Shown here in pieces: positions 8,450 to 48,775 of a stretch of DNA of 64,000 nt (position 1 is the first letter of the stretch; every line of letters begins with the position of its first letter). The notes under the pieces are model-generated. The model had not been told where the DNA came from. It saw nothing but the letters and a program-made list of their open reading frames with translations, and ran no database searches. The DNA comes from Candidatus Pantoea floridensis (lineage in GTDB: Bacteria; Pseudomonadota; Gammaproteobacteria; Enterobacterales; Enterobacteriaceae): positions 3,038,001 through 3,102,000 of the forward strand of contig NZ_OCMY01000001.1 of NCBI RefSeq assembly GCF_900215435.1. The letters are read 5' to 3'. Both the position numbers and the translations under genes were made by a program.

Positions 8450-8829
8450 TGGCGATTCTCGGACTTGGCAGCGACATCGTAGAGATCGAGCGTATCGCGG
8501 GCGTGATTGAGCGTTCCGGCGATCGCCTGGCGCGCCGCGTATTGAGCGAAGCCGAGTGGCAGCAATATCAGGCGCACCAGCAGCCGGTGCGTTTTCTTGC
8601 CAAGCGTTTTGCGGTAAAAGAAGCGGCCGCGAAAGCGTTCGGTACCGGCATTCGCGGTGGCCTGGCGTTCAATCAGTTTGAAGTGTACAACGACGCGCTG
8701 GGCAAGCCGGGGTTACGTTTCTTTGAACAGGCTAAAGTGATTGCCAGCCAGCTCGGCGTACAGCACGTGCATGTGACGTTAGCGGATGAACGCCATTACG
8801 CTTGCGCGACGGTAATTATCGAGAACTAA
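8449..8829 (+). CDS. acpS: Holo-[acyl-carrier-protein] synthase
   Basis: Transfers 4'-phosphopantetheine from CoA to acyl carrier protein. It has 126 residues. GLGSDIVEI at the N-terminus carries the metal-binding Asp, and [17 protein letters not shown] (about 61-77) holds the second metal ligand Glu. It is coupled to pdxJ by a 1-nt overlap. Its stop codon overlaps that of convergent yfhL by 4 nt, with no room for a conventional terminator between them. Confidence 0.97.
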
Positions 8830-9074
8830 GGGTGCAACACCACAAATTTCTCCCACAGCATCTCACGACTTTCCGGGTGCTGTGGATCCGCAATAATGGT
8901 GTTATCAATCGGGCAGACGCTTTGGCAGGTCGGCACATCATAATGGCCCACGCATTCGGTGCAGCGGTCAACATCAATCTCATAGATCGCGTCGCCTAAG
9001 CTGATTGCCTGATTTGGGCATTCAGGTTCGCACATATCGCAGTTGATGCATTTTGTGGTGATGACTAGGGCCAT
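8826..9074 (-). CDS. yfhL: YfhL-type 2[4Fe-4S] ferredoxin
   Basis: Small electron carrier of 82 residues. The first cluster motif is [16 protein letters not shown] (about 9-24), and the second is [18 protein letters not shown]. The longer spacing inside the second motif is typical of the YfhL/Alvin subfamily. It converges on acpS with a 4-nt overlap. A TATAAT on the minus strand lies 36 bp upstream of the ATG. As an [Fe-S] protein it depends on cluster assembly, which is notable because the isc operon in this window is incomplete. Confidence 0.93.
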
Positions 9075-30772: not shown

Positions 30773-31516
30773 ATGCTGCAAAATATCCGAATCGTACTGG
30801 TAGAAACGTCTCACACCGGCAACATGGGCTCTGTCGCACGCGCCATGAAAACCATGGGTTTAACCAACCTTTATCTGGTCAACCCGTTGGTAAAACCTGA
30901 TTCTCAGGCCATTTCCCTCGCCGCCGGCGCCAGCGATGTCATTGGCAATGCGCGCATTGTCGATACCATGGATGAAGCCATTGCCGGTTGTAGTTTAGTC
31001 GTCGGCACCAGCGCCCGTTCGCGTTCCCTGCCGTGGCCCATGCTTGACTCGCGTGAGTGCGGCATTAAAAGCGTGGAAGAGGGCCAGCAGGCACCGGTTG
31101 CGCTGGTATTTGGCCGTGAGCGTGTGGGGTTGACCAACGAAGAGTTGCAGAAGTGTCATTACCATGTGGCGATTCAGGCCAATCCGGAATACAGCTCGCT
31201 AAATCTGGCGATGGCAGTACAGATCATCGCTTACGAAGTGCGGATGGCGTGGCTGGACGCGCAAGATAAAGCGGCGCCGGTTGCCGAGCCTGAAGAATCC
31301 CCGTATCCATTGGTCGACGATCTGGAGCGCTTCTATCAGCACATTGAGAAGATGATGTTGAACAGCGGTTTTATTCGTGAAGGCACGCCAAGCCAGGTGA
31401 TGAGCAAGCTGCGTCGTTTATACACGCGCGCACGTCCGGAACGCGATGAGCTGAATATCCTGCGCGGCATGATGGCCTCATTCGAAAAGCGCAAAGGTAA
31501 TGGGGATAATAGTTGA
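30773..31516 (+). CDS. trmJ: tRNA (cytidine/uridine-2'-O-)-methyltransferase TrmJ
   Basis: SPOUT-class enzyme that 2'-O-methylates position 32 of several tRNAs. It has 247 residues. The trefoil-knot SAM domain has [16 protein letters not shown] (about 11-26), [13 protein letters not shown] and the late [10 protein letters not shown]; the C-terminal helical domain follows. It lies immediately upstream of iscR, and its last codons overlap the first of three IscR-type sites. Confidence 0.97.
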
Positions 31517-31583
31517 GTGAAACAGTTGGTTAAATAGTTGAGTAAATTACTTGGTTAAATAGTTGACCGTTTTACTCGGGAAT
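31509..31583 (+). promoter_or_regulatory. Three abutting 25-bp IscR type-1 sites at the iscR promoter
   Basis: The 25-bp sites occupy 31509-31533, 31534-31558 and 31559-31583, with no gap. Each starts ATAGTTGA and carries the type-1 features YYGACT-RWWWY-AGTCRR with few mismatches; sites 1 and 2 are identical at 21 of 25 bases. Site 3 covers the -35. E. coli has two such sites at this promoter. Site 1 overlaps the trmJ stop codon. Confidence 0.75.
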
Positions 31584-31651: not shown

Positions 31652-32149
31652 ATGAGACTGACATCCAAAGGACGTTATGCCGTAACCGCTATGCTGGACG
31701 TTGCACTGCACTCACACGAAGGCCCTGTGCCGCTAGCTGACATTTCTGAGCGTCAGGGCATTTCGCTATCCTATCTGGAGCAGTTATTCTCACGCTTACG
31801 TAAGCATGGCTTAGTGGCCAGCGTTCGTGGTCCGGGCGGCGGTTATCTGTTAGGTAAAGACTCTGGCGCCATTGCCGTGGGTGCGGTAATCACCGCCGTT
31901 GATGAATCTGTCGACGCCACCAAATGCCAGGGTAAAGAAGGCTGCCAGGGCGGCGAGCGTTGCCTGACGCACGTTCTGTGGCGCGATCTGAGTGAGCGCA
32001 TCAGCGACTTCCTTAACAACATCACGCTGGCGGAACTGGTGAATAATCAGGAAATCCTCGATGTTGCCGATCGCCAGAACGCGATCGATAATCGCCGCTT
32101 CCAGCAGCATCGTGTGCAAGAAACCATCAACGTTAATCTCCGCGCGTAA
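31652..32149 (+). CDS. iscR: Fe-S cluster regulator IscR
   Basis: Rrf2-family regulator. Holo-IscR with [2Fe-2S] represses its own promoter; apo-IscR acts at type-2 sites such as the suf promoter (known from E. coli). It has 165 residues from the ATG at 31652; the ATG 9 bp upstream is too close to the GAGG sequence. The winged helix is at about 1-80, and the cluster ligands are intact: C-x5-C-x5-C-x2-H ([17 protein letters not shown], about 91-107). So cluster sensing should work although iscU, iscA and hscBA are missing downstream. Confidence 0.97.
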
Positions 32150-32238: not shown

Positions 32239-33411
32239 ATGAAATTACCGATTTACCTGGATTACGCAGCCACCACGCCTGCCGATCCACGTGTTGCCAC
32301 CAAAATGATGCAGTTCCTCACCATGGATGGCACCTTCGGTAACCCCGCTTCCCGTTCTCACCGTTTTGGCTGGCAGGCTGAAGAGGCCGTTGATGTTGCT
32401 CGCAATCAAATTGCTGAGCTGGTCAATGCCGATCCGCGTGAAATCGTTTTTACCTCTGGCGCAACAGAAGCTGATAACCTGGCAATTAAGGGAGCAGCAC
32501 AATTCCATCAGGCGCGCGGCAAACACATCATTACCAGCCAAACCGAACACAAAGCGGTGCTCGACAGTTGTTTGCAGCTGGCGCATGAAGGCTTTGATGT
32601 CACTTTCTTACAGCCGGGCAGCGACGGCATTGTCACGCCGCAGATGCTTGAATCTGCACTGCGCGACGATACGGTGCTGGTGTCGCTGATGCACGTTAAT
32701 AATGAAACCGGTGTGATTCAGGATATCGCTGCCCTCGGCGCGCTGTGCCATGCGCGAGATGTGCTGTTCCACGTTGATGCCACCCAAAGCGTCGGCAAGT
32801 TACCGATTAACGTCAGTGAACTGCCGGTGGATTTGATGTCGTTCTCGGCGCACAAGCTCTATGGCCCCAAAGGCATCGGTGCGTTGTGGGTGCGACGTAA
32901 ACCGCGTCTGCAAATCGATGCGCAGATGCACGGTGGTGGACACGAGCGTGGTATGCGATCAGGCACTTTGCCGGTGCACCAGATTGTTGGCATGGGCGAA
33001 GCCTATCGCATTGCGCGTGAAGAGATGAGCAGCGAAATGGCGCGTCTGGCTGAGCTGCGCCAGCGTCTGTGGAGCGGCATCAGTAAACTGGGTAATGTGA
33101 ACCTCAACGGTTCGCTCGAACAGGGCGCACCAAACATCCTCAATATCAGTTTTGCCCACGTTGATGGCGAATCGCTGATTATGGCGCTGAAAGATCTGGC
33201 GCTCTCATCCGGTTCCGCCTGTACCTCGGCCAGTCTCGAACCCTCATATGTACTGCGCGCAATGGGCGTTGAGCAGGAGCTGGCACACAGCTCGCTGCGT
33301 TTTTCGCTCGGACGTTTCACAAGCGCAGAAGAAATTGAGTACGCTATCGAGCTGGTTAATAAAGCGGTAACGCGCCTGCGGGCAGTATCGCCTGCGGCAA
33401 CCTCCCGCTAA
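32239..33411 (+). CDS. iscS: Cysteine desulfurase IscS, C-terminal tail missing
   Basis: PLP enzyme that takes sulfur from cysteine as a Cys persulfide and passes it to acceptors for Fe-S clusters, thiamine and tRNA thiolation. It has 390 residues against 404 in E. coli. PLP Lys206 is in [10 protein letters not shown] and active Cys328 is in [14 protein letters not shown]; both are intact. It ends [10 protein letters not shown] instead of the E. coli tail after SP (LWEMYKQGVDLNSIEWAHH), which forms part of the IscU contact. The next gene, 62 bp on, is pepB; iscU-iscA-hscB-hscA-fdx-iscX are absent. Confidence 0.95.
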
Positions 33412-33421
33412 TTCATGCACC

Positions 33422-33445
33422 CCTTGCGCCGGTTCTGGCGCAAGG
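33422..33445 (+). other. Hairpin at the iscS-pepB junction
   Basis: CCTTGCGCC / GGCGCAAGG perfect 9-bp stem with a 6-nt loop, 11 bp after the iscS stop. No T run follows, so termination is uncertain. It marks the place where iscU to iscX would be in E. coli. Confidence 0.5.
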
Positions 33446-33473
33446 TGACACCTAACGCAAACGGAGCCACGCG

Positions 33474-34760
33474 ATGACAACACAACCGATGATAATTACG
33501 CTCAGCTCCCAGGCCGCCGACGCGCGCTGGGGTGACAAAGCATTGCTGAGCAGCAACGAAAGTGGCATGACCGTTCACCTGACTGGCGCCGACGCGCTGA
33601 TGAGCATCCAGCGCGCCGGGCGCAAGCTGGACGGTCAGGGCATTCGCCACGTTGCGCTGCACGGCGAAGGCTGGGATTTGGAAAAATGCTGGGCATTCTG
33701 GCAAGGCTATCGTAGCCCGAAAGGCAAGCGCCAGGTCGAGTGGCCGGAATTCAATGAAGCCGATCAAGCTGAATTTGAGCGTCGTTTGAAGATCGTTGAT
33801 TGGGTTCGCGACACCATCAACCTGCCGGCGGAAGATCTCAGCCCCGAGCAGCTGGCGCATAACGCGGTTGATTTGATTAGCGAAGTCGGCGGCAAAGCGG
33901 TGAGCTACCGCATTACCAAAGGTGACGATCTGCGCGAGCAGGGATATGCCGGCATCCACACCGTTGGGCGTGGTTCCTCGCGCGTACCGGTACTGCTGGC
34001 GCTTGATTTCAACCCAACCGGCGATGAAGCTGCACCGGTTTATGCGTGTCTGGTGGGTAAAGGTATTACTTTTGATACCGGCGGTTACAGCCTGAAGCAG
34101 AGCGCTTTTATGGATTCAATGAAGTCCGACATGGGCGGCGCGGCAACGCTGACCGGCGCACTGGCGTTAGCGATTTCGCGTGGTCTGAACAAGCGCGTGA
34201 AACTGTTCCTGTGCTGCGCAGACAACATGGTGAGCGGCAACGCGTTCCGTCTGGGTGACATCATCCGCTATCGCAACGGTAAAACCGTTGAAGTAATGAA
34301 CACCGATGCGGAAGGCCGTCTGGTGCTGGCCGATGGCCTGATCGATGCCAGCGAGCAAAATCCAGAGCTGCTGATTGATGCCGCCACGCTGACGGGCGCA
34401 GCAAAAACGGCCTTGGGCAACGATTACCACGCGCTATTTACCTTTGACGATGTGCTGGCCGAATCGCTGCTCGGCAGCGCAACCGGTGAGAACGAAGCCT
34501 TCTGGCGTCTGCCGCTGGCGGAATTCCATCGGAGCCATTTGCCTTCGAACTTTGCCGACTTGAATAACATCGCCAGCCCGTCACACGCGGCGGGTGCCAG
34601 CAGCGCGGCCGCGTTCCTGTCGCATTTCGTCAGCAAATACCAGCAGGGCTGGCTGCATATTGACTGCTCTGCCACCTATCGCAAAGGTGCGGTGGATCAG
34701 TGGTCCGCCGGTGCAACCGGTTTAGGTGTGCGTACCGTCGCCAATCTATTGCTGAAATAA
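33474..34760 (+). CDS. pepB: Peptidase B, M17 aminopeptidase
   Basis: Cytosolic leucyl-type aminopeptidase of 428 residues (E. coli 427). The two-metal site is formed by [14 protein letters not shown] and [14 protein letters not shown]. The start [16 protein letters not shown] resembles the family, and CGGAG lies 8 nt before the ATG. In E. coli it follows iscX; here it directly follows iscS, so it is probably co-transcribed from the iscR promoter unless the junction hairpin stops transcription. Confidence 0.96.
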
Positions 34761-34806: not shown

Positions 34807-35574
34807 ATGAGTAACCGTCTTGAAGAGGTGCTGAAGTTGGCCGCCACTGAGCCTGCGCACCGTCCGGAATTTTTCCAACTGCTGCTGGAAGCCGATGTTT
34901 GGGTACCTGGCGAAAGTCCTGCCGAACAGTTTGATGCCACCTCACCGGTTGAGTTACAGCACTGGGAAAAAGAGGGCGGCGGCAGCGTAATCCCGTTCTT
35001 CACTTCCGAAGAAGCGATGGGCGAGGCGATCAAAGGTGAACAGCCGTATCTGCGCATGCCGGTGCGTACGCTGTTTGAGATTACACAGGGCGACACGCTG
35101 TTTCTCAATGCGAAACTGCCTGCCGGCAAAGAGTTTTCGCCGGGCGAAATTGCCCATTTGCTGAGTGAAGAGGGCAGTGCGCTGAGTCAGCAAACCGTGC
35201 TGGAAGGCGGACAAGCGCTGCTGCTCTCCGAAGTGGCAGAGCCACCGGCGCAGATGATTGATTCGCTGACGCAGCTGTTTGCCAAGTATAAGCAGGTGCG
35301 CCGTGCTTACGTTGCCAGCATTCGTGAAAGCGCAGCGGAAGAGCCGAATCTATTGATTGGCATCGAAGCGGATAGCGATATTGATGAGATTATTCAGGCA
35401 GCGGGCGGGGTGGCAACCGATACGCTCGCCGACGATGCACCGATTGATATCTGTGAAGTGGTGAGTGAAGATCGCGGCGTCAGCCATTTCTTTACTGCCC
35501 ACATTACGCCTTTTTACGAGCGTCGCTGGGGCAGTTTCCTGCGCGATTTCAAAGGCAGCCAGCGGATTATTTGA
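34807..35574 (+). CDS. sseB: SseB family protein
   Basis: The 255-residue protein aligns with E. coli SseB (enhanced serine sensitivity) over its whole length: ATEPAHRPEFFQLLLE near the start, HWEKEGGGSVIPFFTSEEA, and PFYERRWGSFLRDF at the end. Function is not firmly known; no signal peptide or membrane segment is seen. It is preceded by a terminator and convergent with sseA, the conserved neighbour, across a repeat element. Confidence 0.93.
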   Translation: MSNRLEEVLKLAATEPAHRPEFFQLLLEADVWVPGESPAEQFDATSPVELQHWEKEGGGSVIPFFTSEEAMGEAIKGEQPYLRMPVRTLFEITQGDTLFLNAKLPAGKEFSPGEIAHLLSEEGSALSQQTVLEGGQALLLSEVAEPPAQMIDSLTQLFAKYKQVRRAYVASIRESAAEEPNLLIGIEADSDIDEIIQAAGGVATDTLADDAPIDICEVVSEDRGVSHFFTAHITPFYERRWGSFLRDFKGSQRII

Positions 35575-44629: not shown

Positions 44630-45799
44630 ATGTCCGAACAGATTGTGACGCCGTCGTCCGCTTCCCCCGTGGTTGTTTCCCCAAAAAACGAAAAAATTAA
44701 CCTGCTGGATCTTAACCGTCAGCAGATGCGCGAATTCTTTCTTGAAATGGGCGAAAAGCCATTCCGTGCCGATCAGGTTATGAAGTGGATGTACCACTAC
44801 TGCTGCGATGATTTCGAGCAGATGACCGACATCAACAAAGTGCTGCGTGGCAAACTGATGCAGCGCGCTGAAATTCGTGCGCCGGAAGTGGCGGAAGAGA
44901 TGCGTTCCAGCGATGGCACCATTAAATGGGCGATTCGCGTAGGCGATCAGCTGGTGGAAACCGTGTATATCCCGGAAGCTGACCGCGCCACTTTGTGCGT
45001 CTCCTCGCAGGTGGGATGTGCGCTAGAGTGCAAATTCTGTTCGACGGCGCAGCAGGGCTTTAACCGCAATCTGCGCGTGTCTGAGATTATCGGCCAGGTG
45101 TGGCGCGCCGCCAAAATTATCGGTGCGGCGAAAATCACCGGTCAGCGCCCCATTACCAACGTGGTAATGATGGGCATGGGCGAACCGCTGCTCAATCTGA
45201 ACAACGTGGTACCGGCGATGGATATCATGCTGGATGACTTCGGTTTCGGTTTGTCAAAACGTCGCGTGACGCTGTCAACGTCAGGCGTGGTGCCGGCGCT
45301 GGATAAGCTGGGCGATATGATCGACGTAGCGCTGGCAATCTCACTGCACGCGCCGAATGATGCCATTCGTGATGAAATCGTGCCGATCAACAAAAAGTAC
45401 AACATCGAGACTTTCCTCGCGGCGGTAAAACGCTACATCGGCAAGTCTAACGCCAATCAGGGCCGTGTGACGATCGAGTATGTGATGTTGGATCACGTTA
45501 ACGACAGCACCGACAATGCCCATGAGCTGGCAGCGTTATTGAAAGAGACGCCGTGCAAAATCAACCTGATTCCCTGGAACCCGTTCCCAGGCGCGCCCTA
45601 TGGCCGCAGCTCTAACAGCCGTATCGATCGCTTCTCTAAAGTGCTGATGGATTACGGTTTCACCACTATCGTACGTAAAACCCGTGGTGATGATATCGAT
45701 GCCGCCTGCGGTCAGCTGGCGGGCGATGTGATTGACCGCACCAAGCGGACATTGCGTAAGAAAATGGCGGGTGAAGCCATCTCTGTGAAGGCGCTCTGA
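44630..45799 (+). CDS. rlmN: Dual-specificity 23S rRNA/tRNA methyltransferase RlmN
   Basis: Radical SAM enzyme that puts the C2 methyl on A2503 of 23S rRNA and A37 of some tRNAs. It has 389 residues. The [4Fe-4S] motif is CALECKFC (CxxxCxxC); GMGEPLLN and the late Cys in [10 protein letters not shown] match E. coli RlmN. It needs an Fe-S cluster, so it depends on the assembly machinery in question. pilW starts 75 bp later. Confidence 0.97.
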
Positions 45800-47615: not shown

Positions 47616-47653
47616 CGCGCAGCGCGCTTTCCGGGGAATTGTGGAGAGAGAAT

Positions 47654-48775
47654 ATGCATAACGAAGCACCCATTATCCGTCGCAAATCAACACGGATTTA
47701 CGTCGGCAAGGTGCCAGTTGGCGATGGTGCGCCCATCGCCGTTCAGTCAATGACCAACACCCGCACCACCGATGTGGACGCGACCGTCAACCAGATTCGC
47801 CAGCTTGAGCGCGTCGGGGTGGATATTGTTCGCGTTTCCGTTCCGACCATGGATGCGGCTGAAGCCTTCAAACTGATTAAGCAACAGGTCAACGTGCCGC
47901 TGGTAGCGGACATTCACTTTGACTATCGCATTGCGCTTAAAGTCGCCGAGTATGGCGTGGATTGCCTGCGTATCAACCCGGGCAACATTGGTAACAATGA
48001 GCGTATCCGCCAGGTGGTGGATTGTGCGCGCCATTACAACATCCCCATTCGCATCGGCGTTAATGCCGGTTCGCTGGAAAAAGATCTGCAGGAAAAGTAC
48101 GGTGAGCCAACGCCGCAGGCGCTGCTCGAATCCGCTATGCGCCATGTGGATCATCTCGATCGCCTCAACTTTGATCAGTTTAAAGTGAGCGTCAAAGCCT
48201 CGGACGTCTTCCTCGCCGTTGAATCCTACCGCCTGCTGGCGAAAGCCATCGATCAGCCGCTGCACCTCGGTATTACCGAAGCGGGTGGCGCACGCGCCGG
48301 TTCGGTGAAGTCGGCGATTGGCTTAGGCCTACTGCTGGCCGAAGGCATCGGTGATACGCTGCGTATATCACTGGCAGCCGATCCAGTTGAAGAAGTAAAA
48401 GTGGGCTATGACATCCTCAAATCCCTGCGTATCCGCTCGCGCGGCATCAACTTTATCGCCTGCCCAACCTGTTCACGTCAGGAGTTTGATGTCATTGGCA
48501 CAGTGAATGCGCTGGAAGAACGTCTGGAGGACATCATCACGCCAATGGATATTTCGATCATCGGTTGTGTGGTGAATGGTCCGGGCGAAGCCACGGTTTC
48601 TACCCTCGGCGTAACCGGCGGAGCCAAGAAAAGTGGCTTCTACGAAGATGGCGTGCGACAGCGCGATCGCCTCGATAACGATGACATGATCGATCAGCTG
48701 GAAGCGCGTATTCGTGCTAAAGCTTCCATGCTGGATGAAAGCCGTCGTATCAACGTACAGCAGCTGGAAAAATAA
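47654..48775 (+). CDS. ispG: 4-hydroxy-3-methylbut-2-en-1-yl diphosphate synthase (flavodoxin)
   Basis: [4Fe-4S] enzyme of the MEP isoprenoid pathway: reduces MEcPP to HMBPP. I use the ATG at 47654, with GGAGAG 7 nt upstream, giving [18 protein letters not shown] and 373 residues (E. coli 372). Cluster ligands are in [11 protein letters not shown] and in [12 protein letters not shown]. One residue is inserted near [11 protein letters not shown] relative to E. coli. Part of the rodZ-ispG-hisS-yfgM-bamB run. Confidence 0.97.

Follow-up and report, generated by a model that had tools for sequence, protein, structure and literature searches.

Reduction of the isc operon to iscR-iscS in Candidatus Pantoea floridensis and evidence for repeated loss of ISC among its relatives

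How does a bacterium build its iron-sulfur clusters when its isc operon ends after the second gene, and what is the desulfurase IscS then kept for? These questions are raised by a locus of Candidatus Pantoea floridensis lying in a stretch of 64,000 nucleotides, hereafter the window, which corresponds to positions 3038001-3102000 of contig C1 in a 5.45-Mb assembly (5 contigs, 100% complete). The need for clusters is evident from the window itself, where we located the three clients named in the original prediction, namely YfhL, a 4Fe-4S dicluster ferredoxin (8826-9074, minus strand), the radical-SAM protein RlmN (44630-45799, plus strand), and IspG (47639-48775, plus strand).

The locus reads, on the plus strand throughout, trmJ (30773-31516; over its NCBIfam cut-off and the upstream neighbor as in E. 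coli), a type-1-like IscR operator 5' of iscR (31559-31583, matching 22 of 25 consensus positions), iscR (31652-32149), iscS (32239-33411), pepB (33474-34760, with its ATG at 33474), and sseB (34807-35574). In a profile scan of the window, IscR, IscS, PepB, SseB, and TrmJ all exceed the curated family cut-offs (IscS scores 662.7 bits against TIGR02006, cut-off 643.2), and IscR retains the [2Fe-2S] ligands C92, C98, C104, and H107 (E. coli numbering). The interval between iscS and pepB, which in E. coli K-12 holds iscU, iscA, hscB, hscA, fdx, and iscX, is here a junction of 62 bp (33412-33473), exactly as originally predicted, and tblastn with the six isc proteins detected no remnant in it at E <= 0.05, again as predicted. 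The E. coli-like gene order claimed for the flanks stands by family cut-offs for trmJ, iscR, pepB, and sseB; suhB and sseA are genes that we take to be present in the window, having named them by eye. The junction had also been described as a hairpin followed by a ribosome binding site. Both a 9-bp inverted repeat (33422-33445, arms 33422-33430 and 33437-33445, plus strand) and a ribosome binding site, GGAG at 33463, are present, but the hairpin did not stand out: with a z of -1.59 the junction folds unexceptionally, and its predicted minimum-energy structure differs from the 9-bp hairpin. Given the lack of a T-run after the repeat and the unexceptional fold, an intrinsic terminator at this place can be ruled out.

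Sixty-two base pairs where about 4.5 kb would be expected might reflect a collapsed assembly that conceals an intact isc operon. We consider the probability of such an error negligible, because a near relative (L033, IscS 92% identical) has an identical gap sequence, other Pantoea and Erwinia loci share the arrangement, the assembly is devoid of IscU, Fdx, and IscX anywhere, and all 60 sampled genomes of the genus lack IscU, apart from NifU-length frames in 5; the identical gap and the genus-wide absence lead us to reject it. A search of the complete genome, proposed with the original prediction, returned an intact sufABCDSE and no protein assignable to the missing isc genes. No PF01592 (NifU_N) match, and hence no IscU scaffold, was found by a search that detected the domain in 12 of 14 control genomes, E. 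coli among them; Fdx and IscX, both of which the same searches recover from E. coli, gave no match in the assembly, and neither did the frataxin CyaY. For HscB, nothing exceeded the cut-off, and a single weak, DnaJ-like match remained (E 9.5e-5); for HscA, likewise, the only full-length match lies below the cut-off and is DnaK, as named from its sequence and its position adjoining DnaJ. Three PF01521 matches represent A-type proteins, none of them beside iscS: one is SufA, we take the other two, by the length of their open frames only, for ErpA and NfuA, and, with two of the three so named, none is assignable to IscA. The absence of iscU, hscBA, fdx, and iscX is thus confirmed genome-wide, iscA is probably absent as well, and relocation of the isc genes to another place is rejected by the assembly-wide searches for IscU, HscB, HscA, Fdx, and IscX. 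The suf genes lie at C1:91068-96633, on the same contig and about 3 Mb from iscRS; SufA, SufB, SufC, SufS, and SufE each exceed their family cut-off, and SufD was recognized by 65% identity to its E. coli counterpart in an alignment together with a SUFBD match. SUF, the kind of alternative system that the original prediction called for, is the only assembler found in this genome.

To what extent is this condition shared? We scored the presence of NifU_N (IscU), CyaY, IscX, HscB, and SUF across 198 genomes drawn from the family. IscU was found in 130 of these, one of which (G141) has only a NifU-like frame of 295 aa, and was missing from 68, including 21 genomes of at least 3 Mb, in 18 genera. 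None of the 68 IscU-less genomes encodes CyaY (vs 119 of the 130 IscU-bearing ones), an HscB over the cut-off (vs 127) or IscX (vs 102), whereas SUF is present in 67 of 68 (vs 83 of 130), the sole exception being a genome of 0.2 Mb and 84% completeness (G077). The IscU-bearing exceptions, 11 genomes without CyaY and 28 without IscX, are mostly small; because exceptions occur only on this side, CyaY and IscX need IscU in the 198-genome draw, not the reverse. One large-genome exception to the pairing of IscU and CyaY, G022 (L155), combines a full isc operon with a NifU-like frame and has no CyaY. Within the genus, 55 of 60 genomes are without NifU_N, the remaining 5 carry a NifU-length frame only, and an IscU-like match was seen in 0 of 60. 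These five (G203, G218, G226, G229, and G237) and G141 are large, IscU-less genomes with a PF01592 frame of NifU length (280-319 aa), and genomes of this kind are probably nitrogen fixers equipped with NIF and SUF and devoid of ISC.

Comparison of the junction across Pantoea, Erwinia, and their relatives, a check suggested at the outset, showed that the same truncation recurs, also in other enterobacteria. Among the loci nearest by IscS, it is found in six Pantoea-group records (L033-L038) and three Erwinia (L041, L047, and L054); the symbionts Ca. Pantoea carbekii, Sodalis sp., and Fukatsuia have a truncated locus as well, with neither iscR nor pepB nearby in Ca. Pantoea carbekii. Erwinia sp. 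OLFS4 (L043) retains iscU to fdx. In this locus and in L159 (from G068, which has CyaY), iscX is missing though iscU to fdx are present, and IscX may be the first to go. In near-identity searches, plasmids yielded only three Klebsiella records, matching iscS alone at about 76%, and phages yielded no match. The loss is common to the whole genus as sampled and to many other genera, and in our draw it is always accompanied by the loss of CyaY.

The fetched loci also speak to the direction of change. Among 21 loci, drawn from IscU-less genomes of at least 3 Mb plus G141 and leaving our own genome apart, pepB lies 29-789 bp 3' of iscS on the same strand in 20 (G069 has none); the gap lengths are approximate because the start of pepB was placed by aligning E. 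coli PepB. A protein search of 32 gaps revealed no remnant of iscU, iscA, hscB, hscA, or fdx, and an iscX-like piece at E <= 0.05 in 8 of them: the piece is clear in L135 (2.6e-9), reaches 4.8e-4 in L120, is weak in L123, L125, L128, L129, and L130, and is at chance level in L047. At the DNA level, the L128 gap additionally matches a relative's iscX and the sequence 5' of its pepB, and the L126 gap matches weakly over 38 bp near hscB/hscA. Such iscX pieces, absent from the junction in the window, point to loss by deletion. Since IscU is found in 38 of 39 genomes from other families of the order, and since fragments of iscX persist in the gaps of other lineages, the direction is that of loss, which agrees with the clean loss originally proposed for this junction, itself free of fragments. 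The exception among these 39 is G285 (4.4 Mb), which gave no match to NifU_N.

The number of losses was assessed on a tree of TrmJ, PepB, and SseB (58 rows, 29 IscU-bearing and 29 IscU-less; LG+G4). On this flanking-gene tree, the IscU state must have changed at least 7 times (6-8 on bootstrap trees); well-supported branches alone force 4 of these changes, with 15 forks open. Uniting all IscU-less rows in one clade lowers the log-likelihood by 518 (p 9e-41), and a single loss for all of them is rejected on this ground; for the Erwinia/Pantoea part, a single loss survives the same test (p 0.26, or 0.28 without two odd rows). One could instead envisage a single ancestral loss, with the operon regained by transfer in the IscU-bearing lineages, and the Erwinia/Pantoea part would be compatible with one loss. 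However, this scenario runs against the rejection of the all-IscU-less clade, would need re-insertion of the operon between iscS and pepB, and leaves the iscX fragments sitting in several gaps; we regard it as very improbable. The flanking genes thus argue that ISC loss arose several times.

If the scaffold is gone, the surface of IscS should be informative about what the enzyme still does, and its partner sites have been mapped in E. coli. IscU contacts comprise helix 309-316, E347, and the C-terminal residues 379-391, and deletion of 374/376-404 abolishes IscU binding (PMC2854127). According to the same study, TusA docks on W45, E49, D52, and R55, and CyaY and IscX need R116, R220, R223, R225/E227, G234, R237/M239, and R340 (PMC2854127). 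Fdx is reported to need R220/R223/R225 and to be weakened by changes of R112/R116, though not of K101/K105 (PMC3750173). The IscS of the window ends at 390 aa, compared with 404 aa in E. coli, so that the C-terminal IscU-binding tail beyond about residue 390 is lost, and its IscU-contact residues are changed. It keeps the active-site Cys328, all five TusA contacts (W45, E49, D52, R55, and D65), and R220, R223, R237, and M239, and has the substitutions R116H and R225Q.

This pattern is general among relatives. We compared 31 IscU-less IscS sequences, weighted by 11 groups, with 27 IscU-bearing ones at the 257 positions invariant in the latter, where mean retention in the IscU-less set, taken as the background, is 0.862. 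Retention falls to 0.09 in the C-terminal tail (0 of 20000 draws as low, p < 1/20000), to 0.61 at IscU contacts (p 0.0003), and to 0.41 in the CyaY/IscX/Fdx patch (p 0.0009), which R112 joined after its drop was seen and in which R116, R223, R225, and E227 stand without it. TusA contacts, by comparison, are retained at 0.99 and ThiI/shared sites at 0.954, neither significantly above background (p 0.08 and 0.26, respectively): W45, E49, D52, and R55 occur in all 31 IscU-less sequences and D65 in 30, while R220, which is also needed for ThiI, and the active-site Cys are present in 31 of 31. K92, R112, and K101 are gone from almost all IscU-less sequences. Position 92 (E. coli numbering) separates the enterobacterial sets completely, the lysine being found in 27/27 IscU-bearing and 0/31 IscU-less sequences. 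Three IscU-less genomes (G064, G117, and G149) still have a long IscS tail, as expected of younger losses.

The same contrast was observed in 61 more distant loci, nearly all outside the family (one is from Buchnera), with the caveats that the iscU state was read from the fetched locus only, that IscU is divergent and the IscS tail degenerate in 3 of the 44 iscU-bearing loci, and that 3 of the 17 others offer less than 5 kb of downstream sequence. Tail identity is 0.77 where iscU lies beside iscS and 0.05 where it does not; R116 is found in 42/44 vs 1/17 loci, R112 in 41/44 vs 4/17, and K92 in 32/44 vs 0/17, with TusA contacts at 0.81 vs 0.74. Loci of the Idiomarina group (L089, L101, and L104) and of Mangrovitalea (L094) have iscS without iscU in the fetched flank and the same tail loss. 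Could these changes be the neutral drift of a fast-evolving lineage rather than a consequence of partner loss? Over residues 1-375, IscU-less IscS does show greater divergence, with an identity to the E. coli protein of 0.79 vs 0.92 for IscU-bearing IscS. Nonetheless, it is in the partner sites that losses concentrate, comparable positions having a background of 0.862; the pattern recurs across groups that descend from separate losses as well as beyond the family, and the active-site Cys is kept in 31/31 sequences, making drift an improbable explanation.

What remains beside IscS is its regulator. iscR is kept next to iscS in most IscU-less loci from genomes of at least 3 Mb, and the ligands C92, C98, C104, and H107 are found in 30 of 30 IscU-less loci with iscR. 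Scored against a type-1 consensus, a type-1-like operator precedes iscR in all 30 scored IscU-less loci (22-24 of 25 positions) and in 26 of 26 IscU-bearing loci; shuffles of the IscU-less upstream regions reach a mean of 15.7 and a 95th percentile of 17. The suf side differs between the two sets. Within 135 bp before sufA, the best Fur-box match averages 12.45 of 19 positions in IscU-less and 14.75 in IscU-bearing genomes (20 of each; shuffles 10.6, 95th percentile 12; rank test p 3e-6, related genomes being treated as independent). In our genome, the Fur-like operator matches at 12 of 19 positions, compared with 16 in E. coli, and the weakening is uneven, the IscU-less G020 keeping 15. At suf, the IscR type-2 pattern that we used did not clearly rise above shuffles. 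Most genomes of either set share a conserved block beside the Fur-like site, as judged by alignment only, and this block may be an IscR site.

Collectively, we consider it likely that this lineage has lost the ISC machine and lives on SUF alone, with IscR still the sensor and IscS most probably a dedicated sulfur donor for thiolation. SUF would have taken over as the essential, housekeeping assembler. Because its cluster ligands and its own operator are kept, IscR should still be able to read cluster supply, and it would control iscRS and presumably suf. IscS, predicted not to bind IscU, would no longer feed a scaffold; with the IscU tail and the CyaY/IscX/Fdx patch decayed and the TusA side intact, it most likely supplies sulfur only for the thiolation of tRNAs and cofactors, serving TusA and ThiI, as the residue patterns and the known roles of these two proteins suggest. 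The original proposal that IscS is kept for tRNA thiolation and thiamine is in this way supported indirectly, by which of its surface residues are kept. Alternatively, IscS might still take part in cluster assembly, feeding SufBCD or another acceptor, and not be purely a thiolation enzyme. Mycobacterium tuberculosis IscS, which has no iscU beside it, has been reported to affect Fe-S enzymes (PMC10848736), and the position of iscR beside iscS in most IscU-less loci of genomes of at least 3 Mb ties the enzyme to cluster sensing. Yet the genome has dedicated sulfur donors in SufS and SufE, and the IscU, CyaY, IscX, and Fdx sides of IscS have decayed; we therefore view such a role as unlikely and favor a thiolation donor in a SUF-only cell.

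A broader possibility, which we put forward tentatively, is that ISC was shed repeatedly along one coordinated route: deletion of the stretch from iscU to iscX that separated iscS from pepB, loss of frataxin elsewhere in the genome, re-tooling of IscS into a hub for TusA and ThiI only (with decay of the tail, R112/R116, R223/R225, K92, and K101), and release of suf from Fur for housekeeping under IscR. Were this so, the presence of ISC in a genome could be read from its IscS sequence alone, and no function of frataxin in this group would outlive ISC. As CyaY is reported also to slow SufS (PMC11446229), its loss may then even be selected.

Compared with the isc locus of E. coli K-12 (iscRSUA-hscBA-fdx-iscX), the locus described here occupies the same place among the same neighbors (trmJ, iscR, iscS, pepB, and sseB) and keeps the IscR ligands and the type-1-like operator, but six genes are missing, the genome is without CyaY, and IscS lacks the C-terminal tail, R116, R225, and residues of the K92/R112 type. 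All six genes of sufABCDSE are present in the E. coli order; unlike in E. coli, SUF is the only assembler found and its Fur-like operator is weaker. In M. tuberculosis, too, ISC is cut to iscS and SUF is the main system, as reported (PMC10848736), whereas here the ancestral site still carries iscR together with iscS, and close relatives that have the complete isc operon permit a before/after comparison. A further arrangement is seen in the Alteromonas group (L085, L090, and L096) and in Aestuariicella (L111), where iscR-iscS is followed by sufB, C, D, S, an A-type gene, and sufE. Like ours, these loci have iscR-iscS without iscU and have lost the IscS tail; unlike ours, with suf some 3 Mb away, they carry suf directly 3' of iscS, the ISC regulator and desulfurase being fused into the suf cluster.

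Parts of this picture are not new. ISC and SUF themselves are known, as is the half of the co-occurrence by which CyaY implies IscU, every CyaY-bearing species having been reported also to have IscU (Roche 2015, PMC4440780). In the open-access literature searched, we found no report of ISC loss in Pantoea or Erwinia; as far as that literature shows, the new element is a repeated, coordinated enterobacterial loss with a decay of IscS that matches the lost partners. ISC plus SUF has been given as the enterobacterial pattern (PMC11559095), and the phenotype of an iscR mutant of Pantoea stewartii, a species outside the present sample, was explained by calling suf a second pathway (PMC8882988). The ISC-plus-SUF picture fails in the Pantoea genomes sampled and in many further genera, SUF being the only assembler found. 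Independent losses beside relatives with full isc operons amount to a natural experiment on the function of bacterial frataxin, on which surface of IscS serves which partner, and on the changes that a takeover by SUF requires.
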